From Cnuibacter physcomitrellae (GTDB taxonomy: Bacteria > Actinomycetota > Actinomycetes > Actinomycetales > Microbacteriaceae): a stretch of DNA of 64,000 nt. Below, piece by piece: positions 54,841-64,000 of this stretch (its first letter is position 1; every line of letters begins with the position of its first letter). The notes under the pieces are model-generated. The model made no database searches. It was given only the letters and a program-made list of their open reading frames with translations, and was not told the DNA's origin. The translations under genes and the position numbers were made by a program. Location: contig NZ_BMHD01000002.1 of NCBI RefSeq assembly GCF_014640535.1, positions 62,001-126,000 of the forward strand, written 5' to 3'.

Positions 54841-55500
54841 ATGGTCCAGAGTCTCTCCCTCGTCGATGCGCCGTCCCTCGGCGACCTCAAGGTCTTCCTC
54901 GGTCGCTCCGCACGCGTCGAGAACGGGTCGGTGAGGTTGATCGGCAGCCTCGGTGTGCTCGCCGTCTACACGCCCGTGCTCACCCCCAAGGGCCTGCTCG
55001 ACTCGTCGCCCACCGTCCTGGGGCTGCGCACCTTCGCCCTCGCCTCGACCGAGGACTTCGACGTCGTGGTCTCGATCCGCGGGCTCCTCGACCGCCTCGC
55101 CATGCTCTCCCTCTCGGTCGATCGGGAGGGCGGCCCCATCGAGGTGCCGCTCCCGTTGCCCGACGCGGGCGTCGCCTGGGCGGGGATCAGCCCGCCGCGA
55201 GGCGGCTGGCGCCGGGTCGGCACGACCGACCCCCGGCAGCTGGAGGACATCGCGAAGGCCGGCATCTCCGAGATCGCCGACGCGGTCCCGTCGGAGGTCG
55301 GAGAGCAGGTCGTCCGGAAGCTCCGCGGTGCGGTGTGGACCCGCCTCATCCCCGACGTGGGCGCCCGCGTGCCTGCGGCGGCGGCCTTCGCCGCCTACAG
55401 CCTCGGCTTCCTCCGGCGCGATGACGACGCGGCCGTGTACGAGGCCTCGTCGTGGGTGCGCGTCTCGACCCGCCGGGGGCACGTGCTCGTGCACTGGTGA
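54841..55500 (+). CDS. Conserved actinobacterial protein of unknown function
   Basis: 219 aa soluble protein starting MVQSLSLVDAPSLGDLKVFLGR. Mixed alpha/beta, ending in a basic beta strand (WVRVSTRRGHVLVHW). I recognise no domain. The ATG follows TAGACA by six bases, so it may be leaderless; divergent from tesB with overlapping -10 boxes. Confidence 0.75.
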   Translation: MVQSLSLVDAPSLGDLKVFLGRSARVENGSVRLIGSLGVLAVYTPVLTPKGLLDSSPTVLGLRTFALASTEDFDVVVSIRGLLDRLAMLSLSVDREGGPIEVPLPLPDAGVAWAGISPPRGGWRRVGTTDPRQLEDIAKAGISEIADAVPSEVGEQVVRKLRGAVWTRLIPDVGARVPAAAAFAAYSLGFLRRDDDAAVYEASSWVRVSTRRGHVLVHW

Positions 55501-55523: not shown

Positions 55524-56012
55524 CTAGGTCGGCACCACGAGGGTGGCGAGCGACCGCGGGTCCTCCGCGGCGACGAACGCCGACCACTGGCCCTCCCACT
55601 CGTCCCAGTGCCGCTCGTACGCCTCGCCATCGCGCGCGATCGCCCTGCGCCGGCGCTCCACGTCGTCGGTCTCGACCCAGATCGCGAGGTCGCTGAGCGG
55701 TGCGCTCGCGCGGCTGAGCGCCCCGCACCCCTCCACGAGGAGGGGCCTCGACGGGTCGACCGAGTGCCACTCGGCGAACTCGTCGCGGTCCCAGTCCCAG
55801 CGCTGCCATCGGGGCACTCCCCCGTCGCGGAGCGGGCGCAGGAGCTCGGTCACGACGTGCTCGCTCGCGGCTCGCAGACCGCCCCAGCCGGGGTAGACGT
55901 CGTCGAGGTGGACGACCTGCGGCACGTCCGGCCCGGACCAGCGCCGCACGATGGTCGCCGCCAGGTCGGTCTTGCCCGAGCCGGAGGGCCCGTCGATCAG
56001 GATCACGACCAT
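55524..56012 (-). CDS. P-loop kinase (uridine kinase-like) in thiamine-type ECF operon
   Basis: 162 aa. Walker A IDGPSGSGKTDLA at the N-terminus, HLDDVYPGW as the acceptor/Walker B region and the basic lid RRRRAIARDG suggest a nucleoside-kinase-like fold. Its ATG is 2 nt after the ecfT stop, so it belongs to the TPP-riboswitch operon. It might phosphorylate the imported thiamine precursor; this is inference. Confidence 0.8.
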   Translation of the reverse strand: MVVILIDGPSGSGKTDLAATIVRRWSGPDVPQVVHLDDVYPGWGGLRAASEHVVTELLRPLRDGGVPRWQRWDWDRDEFAEWHSVDPSRPLLVEGCGALSRASAPLSDLAIWVETDDVERRRRAIARDGEAYERHWDEWEGQWSAFVAAEDPRSLATLVVPT

Positions 56013-56014
56013 GC

Positions 56015-56797
56015 TCAGCGCACCACGAACGTGAAGGAGCCCACCGCGATCGAGACCAGGAGCGCCGTCGCCCCGACCAGCAGCGCACCGCCGAGGAGCA
56101 GCCAGTCCCGCGCGCGGAACCGGGAAGACCTGGCCCACGTCCGGTCCGCGCGGGCGCCGAATCCCCTGGCCTCCATCGCCGTCGCCAGCTTGCTGCCCCG
56201 GCGGATGGAGAGCACGAGCAGCGCGAACGCCTGACCGACGAACCGTCGGATCCTCCCGGTGTCGCCCAGGCCCCGCGCCCGTCGGGCCAGCTCGAGCTGG
56301 CGCCAGTCGTCGAGGAAGAGCCCGACGAGACGCATCCCCGCCAGCGCGCCGAGCACGAAGCGCGACGGGAGGTGCCAGACCTGCGCCAGGCCGTCGGCGA
56401 GATCGGTCGGGTCGATCGTGATGAAGAGCACCACCGCGGGGAGGCCGATGGCGAGGATGCGCAGCGCCGTCGCGATCGCCAGCGCGATCGACCCGTCGGA
56501 GACGTGGATCAGGCCCCACTGGACGTACGTCGTGCCGGACGCGACGCCGTACAGCGCGGTCGTCAGACCGGCGAGCGGTGCGGCGATCCAGATCGCGACC
56601 GTGCGGCGCAGCAGCACTCGGAAGCCGATGCCGCTCCACGCGATGAAGACGGCCTCGAGCGCGAGCGCGACGAGGGCGGACACCCAGTCGATCGTGACCA
56701 GCAGGAGCAGGCTCAACCCGAGACCGGCCGCGATCTTCGCGACCGCGTTGAACGCCGCGAGCCGGGGCGCCCGCACCGAGCCCAGGACCCCGCTCAC
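56015..56797 (-). CDS. ECF transporter transmembrane component EcfT (YkoC-like)
   Basis: 260 aa membrane protein with about five helices. The coupling helices carry the A-R-G motifs RARGLG and EARGFGAR (near residues 185 and 225) that contact the ATPases. The GTG start at 56797 overlaps the ATPase stop. Part of an importer for thiamine, HMP or a relative. Confidence 0.88.
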   Translation of the reverse strand: MSGVLGSVRAPRLAAFNAVAKIAAGLGLSLLLLVTIDWVSALVALALEAVFIAWSGIGFRVLLRRTVAIWIAAPLAGLTTALYGVASGTTYVQWGLIHVSDGSIALAIATALRILAIGLPAVVLFITIDPTDLADGLAQVWHLPSRFVLGALAGMRLVGLFLDDWRQLELARRARGLGDTGRIRRFVGQAFALLVLSIRRGSKLATAMEARGFGARADRTWARSSRFRARDWLLLGGALLVGATALLVSIAVGSFTFVVR

Positions 56798-58320
56798 GCC
56801 GCGACCCCCTTCGGCACGACGAGGGCGCCGCCGTCGCGGACCACGAGCTCCTGGTCGGCCAGCGCCCGGATGAAGGCGCGGTCGTGCGTGATGGCGATCA
56901 CCGCGCATCCCTCGTCGAGGAGGTCGCCGAGCAGCAGCACCAGTTCGGCCCAGGTGCGCGAGTCCTGCCCGAAGGTGGGCTCGTCGAGCACGAGCACGCG
57001 CGGGCGCGCGATGAGGGCGGAGGCGACGGAGAGCCGCCGCTTCTGCCCGCCGGAGAGGGTGTACGGGTTGGCGCGCGCGAGCGGAGCGAGCCGCATCCGC
57101 TCGAGCATCGCGGAGACCCTGTCGCGGATCTCGGGCTTCGGGAGCCGGAGCGCCTTGAGCGACACCGTCAGCTCGTCCTCGACCGTGCCCGAGACGAACT
57201 GGTGCTCGGGATCCTGGAAGACCGTGCCGATGCGCGTGAGGAGCTCACGAGAACGCCAGCGGGCCGGATGCGGGCCGGCGCCCGTCGCCAGCTCGTCCGA
57301 CGCCCGCACCTCGCCCGCCTCGGGCGGGATGAGCCCGGCGAGGGTGAGCGCGAGGGTCGACTTCCCCGCCCCGTTCGGACCGGTGACCACGAGGGCCCGG
57401 CCGGCGGAGAGGACGAGCTCGATGTCGGATGCCACGGGTCGGCCGGGCACGCGGGCCACCGCGAGCGCGCCGGCCGTGAGCAGCTCGGACCGCGCCGTGT
57501 CGGCTGCCGGTCGATCGTCGGCGTTCGTGGAGCGCGCCGCTCGTCCGCCGAGCGGGTCGATGCCCGGGACCCAGACGCCGGCGTCGGCGAGCCGCCGCCC
57601 CTCCGCGGCGATGACCTGCCGAGCGGGGCCGTCGGCGAGCACGCCGCCCTCGGCGTCCAGCACCACGATCCGCTCGACGACGTCGAGCCAGACGTCGACC
57701 CGGTGCTCGATGACGACCAGGGTCGCTCCTGTCGACCGCACCACCCTGTCGACCGTGTCGCGCACCTCGATCACCCCGTCGGGGTCGAGGTTGGCGGTGG
57801 GCTCGTCGAGGAGGATCAGGCCCGGCCTCATGGCGAGCACGCCGGCGAGCGCCACCCGCTGCTTCTGACCGCCCGAGAGCTCCGAGGTCGCGTGGTCGAG
57901 CGGCAGGTCGAGGCCGACCGCGTCGAGCGACTCCCCCACCCGACGCCAGATCTCGTCCCGCGGCACGCCGAGGTTCTCGCATCCGAAGGCGATGTCGTCT
58001 CCGACGCGAGCGAGCACGAGGTGGGCGTCCGGGTCCTGGAGCAGGAGCCCGGCGCGTCCGCGCACCTCCTCCGGACGCACGCCGTCGAGCAGGAGCTCGC
58101 CGACCTCGTCGCCCTCCTCCGCGCCGCCGAGCACCCCGGCCATCGCCTGCAGGAGCGTGGACTTGCCCGCTCCCGACGCCCCGAGCACGAGGACCCGCTC
58201 GCCCGGCTCGATGACGAGGTCGAGGTCGCGCACGGCCCACTCCTCGCGGCCGGCGTGGCGCCAGCCCCACCCGCGCGCCGACACCCGGGCGGCCGACGCG
58301 CGGACCGCGTCGGCGCTCAC
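56794..58320 (-). CDS. ECF transporter fused ATP-binding protein (YkoD-like)
   Basis: 508 aa with two ABC domains. Walker A GASGAGKST near residue 48 and GPNGAGKST near 321; signatures LSGGQKQRVALAGVL and LSGGQKRRLSVASAL; Walker B LILLDEPTANLDP and VLVLDEPTFGQD. One chain replaces the separate EcfA1/EcfA2 pair. GTG start overlaps the ecfS stop. Confidence 0.92.
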   Translation of the reverse strand: MSADAVRASAARVSARGWGWRHAGREEWAVRDLDLVIEPGERVLVLGASGAGKSTLLQAMAGVLGGAEEGDEVGELLLDGVRPEEVRGRAGLLLQDPDAHLVLARVGDDIAFGCENLGVPRDEIWRRVGESLDAVGLDLPLDHATSELSGGQKQRVALAGVLAMRPGLILLDEPTANLDPDGVIEVRDTVDRVVRSTGATLVVIEHRVDVWLDVVERIVVLDAEGGVLADGPARQVIAAEGRRLADAGVWVPGIDPLGGRAARSTNADDRPAADTARSELLTAGALAVARVPGRPVASDIELVLSAGRALVVTGPNGAGKSTLALTLAGLIPPEAGEVRASDELATGAGPHPARWRSRELLTRIGTVFQDPEHQFVSGTVEDELTVSLKALRLPKPEIRDRVSAMLERMRLAPLARANPYTLSGGQKRRLSVASALIARPRVLVLDEPTFGQDSRTWAELVLLLGDLLDEGCAVIAITHDRAFIRALADQELVVRDGGALVVPKGVAA

Positions 58321-58952
58321 GCTCGGCGGACCGCCTCGCGTCCTGCGGCGAAGCGGTTGAGGGCGCCGGTGCGGGCGAGGCCCCGCACGATCAGCCACGA
58401 CCCGAGGCCCGCGATGATCGCACCTCCGATGACGGAGCACACCGCGTACACGACCATGAACACGGTGTCGGCGCCGACGTACCAGGTGATGAGATCGTTC
58501 ACCGCCATGCCGACGCCCGCGCCCGCGCCCGCCAGGACGGCCACGTAGACCCGGTAGTTGGCGTAGAGGAAGAGCGCGAACACGATCTCGGCCCCGAGCC
58601 CCTGAGCGAGGCCGGAGAGCAGAGTCGCGACGCCCCACTGGGTGCCGATGAGCGCCGAGACCACCGCGGCGACGAGCTCGGTGTAGAGCGCCGCTCCCGG
58701 CTTCCGGACGATGAGCCCGCCGAGGACCCCGGCGAAGAGCCAGACACCATAGAGGAGGGCCTGGGCACCGGGCAGGAGGGCCTCGAGCGGCGCCCCCACG
58801 GGGGCGTAGGCGAGGTTCCAGACCCAGAAGACGAGCCCGGCGGCGACTCCGACGACGCTCGCGACGACGATGTCGACGACTCGCCAGCGGAGCGAGCGGC
58901 GTCGACCCGAGCCGAGGCCGGGTCCGGTGGTGGAGGTGATGGTGGTGTGCAC
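58317..58952 (-). CDS. ECF transporter substrate-binding component (YkoE family)
   Basis: 211 aa, five to six helices. RWRVVDIVVASVVGVAAGLVFWVWN and the YGVWLFAGVLGGLI region are YkoE-like, a family tied to thiamine/hydroxymethylpyrimidine uptake. GTG start with GAAGGGG upstream. First gene after the TPP riboswitch, which supports thiamine-related substrate. Confidence 0.9.
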   Translation of the reverse strand: MHTTITSTTGPGLGSGRRRSLRWRVVDIVVASVVGVAAGLVFWVWNLAYAPVGAPLEALLPGAQALLYGVWLFAGVLGGLIVRKPGAALYTELVAAVVSALIGTQWGVATLLSGLAQGLGAEIVFALFLYANYRVYVAVLAGAGAGVGMAVNDLITWYVGADTVFMVVYAVCSVIGGAIIAGLGSWLIVRGLARTGALNRFAAGREAVRRA

Positions 58953-59032
58953 GTCGTGCCCCTTCGATCGCGTGATGCGTGGGCACGGGTCGCCGCATCC
59001 GCTCGTGTGCGGACACGGCGATGAGGAGAACT

Positions 59033-59120
59033 GCCTCCCTGCGCTGGCATGACCCAGATCAGGTTCGACGGTCGGAGGTTGAGAACCTCCCTCTCAGCCC
59101 GGCTCACCGGACTCCCGTGT
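59033..59120 (-). ncRNA. TPP riboswitch (thi element)
   Basis: On the minus strand: ACACGGGAGTCCGGTGAGCC, then GGCTGAGAGGGAGG, and the highly conserved AACCTGATCTGGGTCATGCC with GCGCAGGGA. This matches the THI-box consensus (CTGAGA and CCTGATCTGG.TAATACCAGCG). It senses thiamine pyrophosphate and shuts off the downstream ECF operon, probably by hiding the ribosome site 80 nt downstream. A TAGGAT -10 lies at 59131-59136. Confidence 0.95.
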
Positions 59121-59130
59121 TTTCCTGGCG

Positions 59131-59136
59131 ATCCTA
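59131..59136 (-). promoter_or_regulatory. -10 box TAGGAT upstream of TPP riboswitch
   Basis: Complement of ATCCTA, about 11 nt before the riboswitch core. Confidence 0.45.
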
Positions 59137-59153: not shown

Positions 59154-59498
59154 CTACTTCTTGGCGGCCTTCACCAGCTTGGCGAGCACGTGGCCGGCGA
59201 CGAGGACGAACGGGATGCCGACCGCGAGGAGCGCGATGAGGTTCGGCTGGAACCGCACGCCGAGCGACGTGGTGACGTACGCCCCGATCGGGACGCTCAC
59301 GCCGCCGCCGCCGAAGCCCTCCCCCTCCGCGTCGGCGTCGGACTTCGCCCCCATGTTGCCGTTGCCGCCGCCGAAGCCGAACCACACCAGCGCGACGGGA
59401 ACGATGGTCGCTCCGTCGATCTCGACCGGAGCCCCGTAGGACGCGTCCACGCCGAGGCGCTTGAGCGGCTCGGTGACCTTCTCGACCAGCTGAGTCAT
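59154..59498 (-). CDS. GerW/YtfJ-like family protein
   Basis: 114 aa. A GerW-type core (KVTEPLKRLGVDASYGAPVEIDGATIVPVALV) is followed by a glycine-rich stretch (GGGNGNMGAKSDADAEGEGFGGGG) and a hydrophobic C-terminal helix with a Lys tail. The family is named for spore proteins, but many non-sporulating actinobacteria have it. The ATG at 59498 follows TAGCGT by six bases (leaderless). Confidence 0.85.
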   Translation of the reverse strand: MTQLVEKVTEPLKRLGVDASYGAPVEIDGATIVPVALVWFGFGGGNGNMGAKSDADAEGEGFGGGGVSVPIGAYVTTSLGVRFQPNLIALLAVGIPFVLVAGHVLAKLVKAAKK

Positions 59499-61824: not shown

Positions 61825-64000
61825 ATGAGCGACGAGGCCCGCATCCCGCGGTCGACGTACCGGCTGCAGATCACGCCGGAGTTCACTCTCACCGACGCCG
61901 CGGAGCTGGTGCCGTACCTGCGCCGGCTCGGCGTCGACTGGGTGTACGTGTCGCCGATCCTGCAGGCGGAGGCCGGCTCGCAGCACGGGTACGACGTCAC
62001 CGACCACTCCCGCATCGACCGCGAGCGCGGCGGCGAGGAGGGCTTCGACGCGCTCGTCGCCGCGGCGCGCGAGGACGGCGTGGGGCTGCTCGTCGACATC
62101 GTGCCGAACCACGTCGGTGTCGCGACGCCCGCGCAGAACCCGTGGTGGTGGGACCTCCTCACCTACGGGCGGGAGTCGCGCTACGCCGAGGCGTTCGACG
62201 TCGACTGGGAGGCCGGCGACGGCCGCATCCTCATCCCCGTGCTCGGCGACTCCTCGACGGCCGACCTCGTCGTCGAGGGCGACGAGCTGGTGTACTTCGA
62301 CAACCGGTACCCGATCGCACCGGGCACAGGTGGCGACGATGCCCAGGCGGTCCACGATCGGCAGCACTACCGTCTGGTCGACTGGCGGCTCGAGAGCACC
62401 GACCTCAACTACCGTCGCTTCTTCGCCGTCTCCACCCTCGCGGCGGTGCGCGTCGAGGTGCCGTGGGTGTTCGACGAGTCGCACGCCGAGATCCGGCGCT
62501 GGTTCGACGAGGGACTGGCCGACGGCCTCCGCGTCGACCACCCGGACGGGTTGGCCGACCCGGGTGGCTACATCAGCGACCTCGCGGAGCTCACCGGCGG
62601 CCGGTACGTCCTCATCGAGAAGATCCTCGAGGGCGACGAGCCCCTGCACCCCGACTGGCCCTCCGCGGGCACGACCGGCTACGACGCGCTCGCGATCCTC
62701 GACCGCGTGTTCGTCGACCCGGCGGGCGAGGCGCCGCTGACGGCGCTGGCCGACGAACTGCGCGGGCGCCCGCAGAGCTACGCCGACCTGATCCACGACA
62801 CGAAGCGGGCCGTCGCAGACGGCATCCTGCAGTCCGAGGTGCGGCGACTGGCCCGCGACATCGTGCGGGCAGGCGGCATCGACGCGACCGACGACGAGGC
62901 GGTGCTGCACGACGGCATCGCGGAGCTGCTCACCTGCTTCCCCGTGTACCGCTCCTACCTGCCGCACGGCACGGAGGCGTGGACCCAGACGCTCGAGGCG
63001 GCGAAGCAGCGCCGCCCCGACCTCGCCGCCGTGCTCGACGACCTCGCCGCCGCCTTCCAGCGCACCGGGACGGCTCCGAGCATCCGCTTCCAGCAGACCT
63101 CGGGCATGGTGATGGCGAAGGGCGTCGAGGACTGCGCGTTCTACCGCTACACCCGCCTCACCAGCCTCACCGAGGTGGGAGCCGAGCCGCAGGAGTTCAG
63201 CGTCTCCCCCGCCCGCTTCCACGAGCTCCAGGCGCACCGCGCCTCGGTGCTGCCCGACTCGATGACCACGTTGTCCACCCACGACACGAAGCGGTCCGAG
63301 GACACCCGTGCCCGCATCAGTGCGCTCGCCGAGATCCCCGGCGAGTGGGCGGATGCGCTGGGTCGGCTCCGCGAAGCTGCTCCCGTGGGAGACGGGTCGT
63401 TCGAGAACCTTCTCTGGCAGGCCGTCGTCGGCGCGTGGCCGCTGTCGCGGGAGCGCGCCCACGCCTACGCCGAGAAGGCGGCCCGCGAGGCCGGCGACTC
63501 GACGGCGTGGCTCGACGTCGACGAGGAGTTCGAGGCGCGCATGCATGCCGCCGTCGACGCCGCGTACGACGACCCTGCGGTGCGGGAGATCGTCGAGGAC
63601 GTGGTGGCGCGTCTGCGTGAGGCCGGCTGGTCGAACTCGCTCGGCGAGAAGCTCGTGCAGCTGACCGCCCCCGGAGTACCCGACGTGTACCAGGGCACCG
63701 AGCTCTGGGACCGCTCCCTCGTCGACCCCGACAACCGCCGCCCGGTCGACTACCGCGCGCGGGTGACGACGCTCGACCGCCTCGACGGCGGGTGGACGCC
63801 CCCGGTCGACGACGAGGGCGCCGCCAAGCTCCTCGTCGTGTCGCGTGCGCTGCGGCTGCGGCGCGACCGTCCCGAGCTCTTCACGGGGTACCGCCCGCTC
63901 GTCGCGGAGGGCGAGGCCGCCGACCACGTCCTCGCCTTCGACCGCGGCGGCGCGATCACCGTCGCGACGCGCCTGCCGATCGGGCTCGCCGCCCGCGGCG
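61825..64000 (+). CDS. treY: Malto-oligosyltrehalose synthase TreY (cut by window end)
   Basis: First 725 residues; the reading frame is open at the window edge. GH13 enzyme that turns the reducing end of maltodextrins into a trehalose unit. It starts [44 protein letters not shown] and [10 protein letters not shown] (acid Glu) are the barrel motifs; [12 protein letters not shown] is TreY-specific. Starts with ATG and GTGAGGAG upstream. TreZ is expected next. Confidence 0.95.

Follow-up and report, generated by a model that had tools for sequence, protein, structure and literature searches.

A P-loop kinase behind a ykoEDC gene set headed by a TPP riboswitch in Cnuibacter physcomitrellae: a predicted thiamine kinase

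What does a small kinase do directly behind the genes of a YkoEDC-type transporter? The question is raised by a locus of Cnuibacter physcomitrellae (assembly GCF_014640535.1, contig NZ_BMHD01000002.1), analyzed here in a stretch of 64,000 nucleotides (nt; contig positions 62,001 to 126,000, forward strand), called the window. Five parts lie together on the minus strand at 55524-59128: a thiamine pyrophosphate (TPP) riboswitch aptamer, YkoE, a fused ATPase of the energy-coupling factor (ECF) type, EcfT and a P-loop kinase, all located as an earlier sequence-only reading had placed them.

59019-59128, minus strand: TPP riboswitch aptamer (RF00059) at the operon head; 55.0 bits (gathering score 54.3), model positions 1-105 of 105
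58317-58952, minus strand: YkoE-type S component, 211 amino acids; PF09819, 137.7 bits; 5edl_A (Bacillus subtilis YkoE), E = 7.1e-25
56794-58320, minus strand: fused double ECF ATPase, YkoD-like, 508 amino acids; ABC_tran in two stretches, 176.4 bits
56015-56797, minus strand: EcfT/YkoC-like transmembrane component, 260 amino acids; PF02361 (CbiQ), 64.1 bits, cut-off 25
55524-56012, minus strand: P-loop kinase of the PRK06547 family, 162 amino acids, ATG start, predicted thiamine kinase; NF005115, 191.5 bits

The aptamer passes the RF00059 gathering score, but barely. A custom TPP riboswitch model gives it 73.3 bits, although the 30 training rows of that model include this very aptamer. YkoE starts 66 nt from the aptamer, the YkoE/ATPase and ATPase/EcfT junctions both overlap by 4 nt, and 2 nt separate the TGA stop of EcfT from the ATG of the kinase. 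The four genes are probably expressed as a single operon. Judged from gene order and families, the YkoEDC set (YkoE, fused double ATPase and T component) is complete. The fused ATPase also matches TIGR04520 in two stretches (327.1 bits, cut-off 315), and EcfT scores 68.2 bits with TIGR02454, under the cut-off of 111.8.

We predict from gene context and pathway gaps, with a probability of roughly 0.6, that the kinase is a thiamine kinase, which converts thiamine to thiamine monophosphate (TMP) and so traps the imported vitamin. Gene order, the riboswitch, protein families, the predicted fold, recurrence among relatives and pathway gaps were observed or computed. At low TPP, the riboswitch would permit expression of the operon. 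YkoE would bind thiamine outside the cell, and the ATPase/EcfT module would power its entry. The kinase would then phosphorylate the imported thiamine, with ATP as the presumed donor and TMP as the presumed product, and ThiL, encoded elsewhere, would make TPP, which in turn would close the riboswitch.

The kinase matches NCBIfam NF005115 (PRK06547, "hypothetical protein") over profile positions 15-169 of 172, above the equivalog cut-off of 173. Two relatives score 218.6 (L145) and 196 bits (L204), both above this cut-off, and the kinases of L194, L208, L202 and L181 fall under it at 148-169 bits. Invariant in an alignment of 57 rows are Gly8, Gly11, Gly13, Lys14, Trp43, Gly45, Leu46, Trp74, Glu94, Gly95, Arg120 and Trp139. 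Conservation is marked at aromatic positions rich in Trp and Tyr (YPGW, WDW, Trp136 and Trp139). As had been claimed from the sequence, the kinase is unlike ThiD and ThiM: no ThiD, ThiM or thiamine pyrophosphokinase (TPK) model, all present in the Pfam and NCBIfam libraries, matches it up to E = 1. The same search returned no match to a thiamine kinase (ThiK) model, presuming that the library holds one. The likeness to uridine kinases, also claimed earlier, holds for the fold and fails for the family models. The AlphaFold2 model has a mean predicted local distance difference test (pLDDT) score of 97.0, and its closest solved structure is uridine-cytidine kinase 1uej_B (Z 17.6, 159 residues, root-mean-square deviation 2.5, 21% identity). 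Phosphoribulokinases follow close behind the uridine-cytidine kinases, and then pantothenate kinases. By this model, the kinase is predicted to have a uridine-kinase fold. By sequence, 1rz3 is the best solved relative; it was deposited as a hypothetical protein and is labelled "possible uridine kinase". The uridine kinase models TIGR00235 and PRK05480 score only 27.5 and 31.5 bits against cut-offs of 220.3 and 180, so that by score the kinase belongs to neither. The FDHP-like motif, which we take to be a mark of uridine kinases, is found in none of 81 kinase sequences.

The arrangement recurs widely. A scan of named genomes confirmed at least 147 relatives, and the best 80 of 147 were kept. 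In 34 of these 80 loci the kinase lies 3' of EcfT and shares its strand, which argues against a chance arrangement. In Microbacteriaceae they come from Agreia, Cryobacterium, Leifsonia, Curtobacterium, Clavibacter, Planctomonas, Glaciihabitans, Salinibacterium, Agromyces, Aurantimicrobium, Pontimonas, Microcella and further members; beyond this family they come from Mycolicibacterium (two), Mycobacterium (one), Corynebacterium (one) and unplaced metagenome-assembled genomes (MAGs; two). Of the 34 loci, 32 show YkoE and 33 show the ATPase; two (L185 and L193) are cut off at a contig edge. The EcfT-to-kinase gap is -17 to 205 nt, with start codons of our choice, and 100 nt or less in 29 loci. 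The covariance model built from 30 TPP riboswitches finds a riboswitch 5' in 31 of the 34, the weakest counted being L188 at 42.3 bits; none was detected in L168 or in the contig-end-cut L185 and L193. The co-occurrence with ykoEDC and TPP riboswitches that the sequence-only reading had proposed to look for is therefore present, and it extends to two unrelated transporter types.

The second type is found in two Leucobacter loci (L194 and L208), where the order is TPP riboswitch, thiamine-type binding protein, permease and kinase. We consider this the strongest single link, since the transporter appears swapped and the kinase kept; a kinase under a TPP riboswitch with an unrelated transporter would track thiamine uptake and not one transporter type. 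The riboswitches score 68.2 and 69.5 bits, and the binding proteins 181.2 and 175.4 bits with TIGR01254 (cut-off 93.4). In L194 the kinase start overlaps the permease stop by one base. The permease of L194, the only one scanned, scores at most 128.4 bits with ThiP models, far under the cut-off, and 136.8 bits with a molybdate permease model, also under, so "ThiP-like" is a loose name for it. No ATPase gene was seen between the genes of either locus. The two kinases are sisters in the tree (support 100), with PRK06547 scores of 150.2 and 148.0 bits, below 173.

The nesting of Mycobacteriaceae kinases within those of Microbacteriaceae (supports 94 and 88, neither starred) suggests that the operon was transferred as a unit. 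The Corynebacterium kinase and that of MAG L202 stand on their own branches, at a fork that the tree leaves open. In five Micrococcaceae loci (L196, L198, L201, L205 and L211) the riboswitch and ykoEDC run convergent to the kinase; a sixth, L214, has the genes, and its sequence ends there.

Is there a gap in the pathway that such a kinase could fill? Pathway genes were searched in 38 genomes, those behind 38 of the 80 fetched loci: 23 with ykoEDC and kinase, two of Leucobacter and 13 others. Several are MAGs without stated completeness, so single absences are soft. TPK exceeds its cut-off in none of the 38, with one partial match of 20.9 bits (G144), and ThiL does so in 31. ThiE is found in 22, above the cut-off in 20. 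It was not found in nine of the 23 ykoEDC-kinase genomes and both Leucobacter genomes, or 11 of 25 transporter-linked genomes, and ThiL is over its cut-off in all 11. By record title, Leifsonia C5G2, Planctomonas deserti, MWH-Ta3 and both Leucobacter are isolates. Among the 23 ykoEDC-kinase genomes, ThiL is over the cut-off in 21, lies in two adjoining pieces in Clavibacter and was not found in a Microcella MAG. The 13 other genomes lack ThiE in five cases and ThiL in four, and G136 has a ThiL slightly under the cut-off. ThiL consumes TMP, which is supplied by ThiE, by a thiamine kinase or from outside; ThiL in the 11 genomes without ThiE therefore needs TMP from one of the latter two. The gap is predicted to lie at the step from imported thiamine to TMP. 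No TPK, a ThiE that is often absent and a retained ThiL together lead to the prediction of a thiamine kinase.

TPK was also looked for in 119 genomes sampled evenly across the order. PF04263 is matched by 82 of them, 75 above its cut-off, and only seven, all of one family (f4) and without a kinase at 92 bits or more, reach at least 62 bits over most of the model. Because these seven come from a single family, the Fisher value for TPK against the kinase counts for little. The remaining matches, 27-39 bits over about 40 positions, were not counted as TPK; we take them to be SteA-like proteins. Three partial ThiG matches of at most 31.6 bits (Pfam cut-off 23) were read as other barrels, because a HisF protein reaches 32.3 bits with the same model.

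Several observations weigh against a thiamine kinase. The window genome itself carries, on another contig (L112:4875-7902), a second TPP riboswitch with thiM, thiE and thiD::tenA (thiM 260.3, thiE 165.6 and thiD 247.7 bits; TenA part 119.8, below its cut-off of 130), and so the absence of thiD and thiM that had been anticipated did not materialize. In favor of a thiamine kinase, the same genome has ThiL (224.3 bits), and neither thiC nor TPK was found in it. With no thiC and only partial ThiG matches of at most 31.6 bits, none convincing, the cluster is predicted to be a salvage-only set. Such a genome might recycle thiamine through cleavage by way of ThiE, ThiD, ThiM and the TenA-like domain. 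A scheme of this kind, TenA cleavage together with import of hydroxymethylpyrimidine (HMP) by YkoCDE, is proposed for a ThiC-less actinobacterium in passages of PMC8965627 that name no thiamine kinase. The kinase also occurs without ThiE or a good ThiL in four genomes, two of Aquiluna and one each of Rhodoluna and Canibacter; two of the four are labelled MAG, and Canibacter is an isolate. Another thiamine kinase could also exist, as the genome searches did not cover ThiK (YcfN).

The contexts of the family weigh on the same side. The 80 loci were chosen by similarity to the kinase of the window. Apart from the 34 with EcfT, 46 remain: the two Leucobacter loci, and loci away from thiamine genes, of which 16 are next to ytfJ (all Microbacterium), nine have pabB, six are near hisF and 13 are others. 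The kinase reaches 92 bits, our threshold for a strong match, in 84 of the 119 order genomes, yet lies within 5 kb of YkoE in only three (G000, G021 and G054); in Microbacterium-like genomes it follows ytfJ, with no ykoEDC there. The wider set of named genomes overturned the idea that the linkage is an accident of one lineage, while the rarity of the linkage among the 119 order genomes still stands. Two groups (f7 and f12, eight genomes each) have YkoE with no full TPK and no kinase at 92 bits or more; their best kinase match is 66.9 bits, and distant matches occur in f12. Micrococcaceae carry the kinase as an in-frame fusion with aminodeoxychorismate synthase component I (PabB). One fusion, L102:8252-10435, encodes 727 amino acids (the family scan was run on L102 alone), and the fused frame is open in nine of the 80 loci; fusion-type loci besides L102 are L189, L199, L201, L205, L207, L211, L212, L214 and L215. 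The split of pabB and hisF types from Microbacteriaceae types has a support of only 87. Either PRK06547 has more than one role, or the non-thiamine contexts are relocations of the same enzyme. Six plasmid records also hold relatives; three neighborhoods were opened, and the one with a gene table names no thiamine gene. The PabB fusion is kept as a side observation that could be a folate clue, as is a low-molecular-weight phosphatase gene that precedes it in Micrococcaceae. In Pseudoclavibacter (L177:2598-8615) the kinase follows a nickel/peptide-type ATP-binding cassette (ABC) transporter, and no TPP riboswitch was detected at that locus.

Could the enzyme be a general kinase of nucleosides or other small molecules, standing behind transporter genes by happenstance? 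A nearest fold of uridine-cytidine kinases and a family so common in the order, so rarely beside YkoE, would fit this explanation. The uridine kinase scores far under their cut-offs, the missing FDHP-like motif and the repeated linkage to two transporter types under TPP riboswitches speak against it, and we consider it unlikely.

YkoE gives some further support to the thiamine kinase. As described in part of PMC5037267, the YkoE of B. subtilis has an affinity for thiamine of about 4.5 nM and contacts it by Tyr46, Trp49, Glu77, Gln95 and Asp131. The window YkoE conserves four of these five contacts (Tyr46, Trp49, Gln95 and Asp131), with Ser in place of Glu77. Among 32 kinase-linked YkoE proteins, this Ser occurs in 25, Trp49 in all 32 and Tyr46 in only two; Glu77 is retained by six YkoE proteins whose neighboring kinase is of pabB type or from Kocuria. 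A further explanation is that the kinase acts on a precursor or breakdown product of thiamine (HMP, aminopyrimidine or thiazole alcohol) brought in by YkoEDC. YkoEDC is listed as a carrier of HMP or thiamine in a portion of PMC6593275, and the HMP import assumed in the passages of PMC8965627 concerns an organism that lacks ThiC, as the window genome does. ThiD and ThiM are nevertheless already present in the window genome, the 11 ThiE-less genomes could not join HMP and thiazole phosphates to TMP through ThiE, and the partner in Leucobacter is a thiamine-type ABC transporter, which together make a precursor kinase quite improbable.

A direct thiamine pyrophosphokinase, making TPP from thiamine in one step, would suit the missing TPK of all 38 genomes and the Aquiluna, Rhodoluna and Canibacter kinases without a good ThiL, but it is very improbable, as it would leave ThiL idle in all 11 ThiE-less transporter-linked genomes and the nearest folds are kinases that probably add one phosphate. 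An HMP kinase substituting for ThiD was rejected, since ThiM, ThiE and ThiD (fused to TenA) are present and no new HMP kinase is called for.

The thiamine kinase reading may reach beyond this operon. On the wider proposal our judgment is evenly divided: PRK06547 would be a second, unrelated thiamine kinase family, of P-loop type and uridine-kinase fold, which fills the gap from thiamine to TMP in many Actinobacteria and is coupled in operons to the thiamine importer of each lineage, and ThiE-less actinobacteria would rely on it for all their TPP. If true, a widespread family that so far carries just the name "hypothetical protein" would gain a function, the route from imported vitamin B1 to cofactor in actinobacteria without TPK and ThiE would be explained, and predictions of vitamin B1 auxotrophy would become sharper.

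Two neighbors frame the operon. On its 5' side lies a gene that is a conserved neighbor of the locus, before ykoEDC here and immediately 5' of the kinase in loci of the Microbacterium type, and that is not thought to be part of the operon:

59154-59498, minus strand: YtfJ/GerW-like small protein, 5' of the riboswitch; PF09579, 29.5 bits

YtfJ/GerW is a sporulation-type protein, although the lineage of the window genome is not known to sporulate. On the other side, a reading frame of 219 amino acids at 54841-55500, convergent with the kinase, could be assigned to no family of Pfam or NCBIfam up to E = 1; its relatives stand further from the kinase in three Microbacterium loci (L154, L160 and L179).

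Among known systems, ThiK/YcfN of enterobacteria, with an aminoglycoside-kinase-like fold, would share the predicted reaction from thiamine to TMP that feeds ThiL. The kinase of the window differs by its P-loop and predicted uridine-kinase-like fold, and no thiamine kinase model is listed among its matches. It resembles uridine-cytidine kinase and 1rz3, its best PDB relatives, in fold and motif order, and differs in identity (about 21%), in missing the cut-offs by far and in lacking the FDHP-like motif. Among the listed titles and abstract openings of open-licence literature, none reports a function for PRK06547 or a kinase in a ykoEDC operon, and passages of PMC5613172 and PMC7397307 hold nothing on this gene; PMC9666465 likewise contributes nothing. 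PMC6593275, in part, names ThiK, ThiM and ThiN as vitamin B1 salvage enzymes, and in one scheme given there ThiL or ThiN suffices for salvage. The B. subtilis YkoEDC operon under its THI box, as far as passages of PMC5037267 describe it, shares YkoE, fused YkoD, YkoC and the TPP riboswitch; it differs in that a kinase follows here, while the extra gene named there for some species is YkoF. NCBIfam PRK06547 (NF005115) is matched over its full length, and for this family, which carries no stated function, we propose that of a thiamine kinase.

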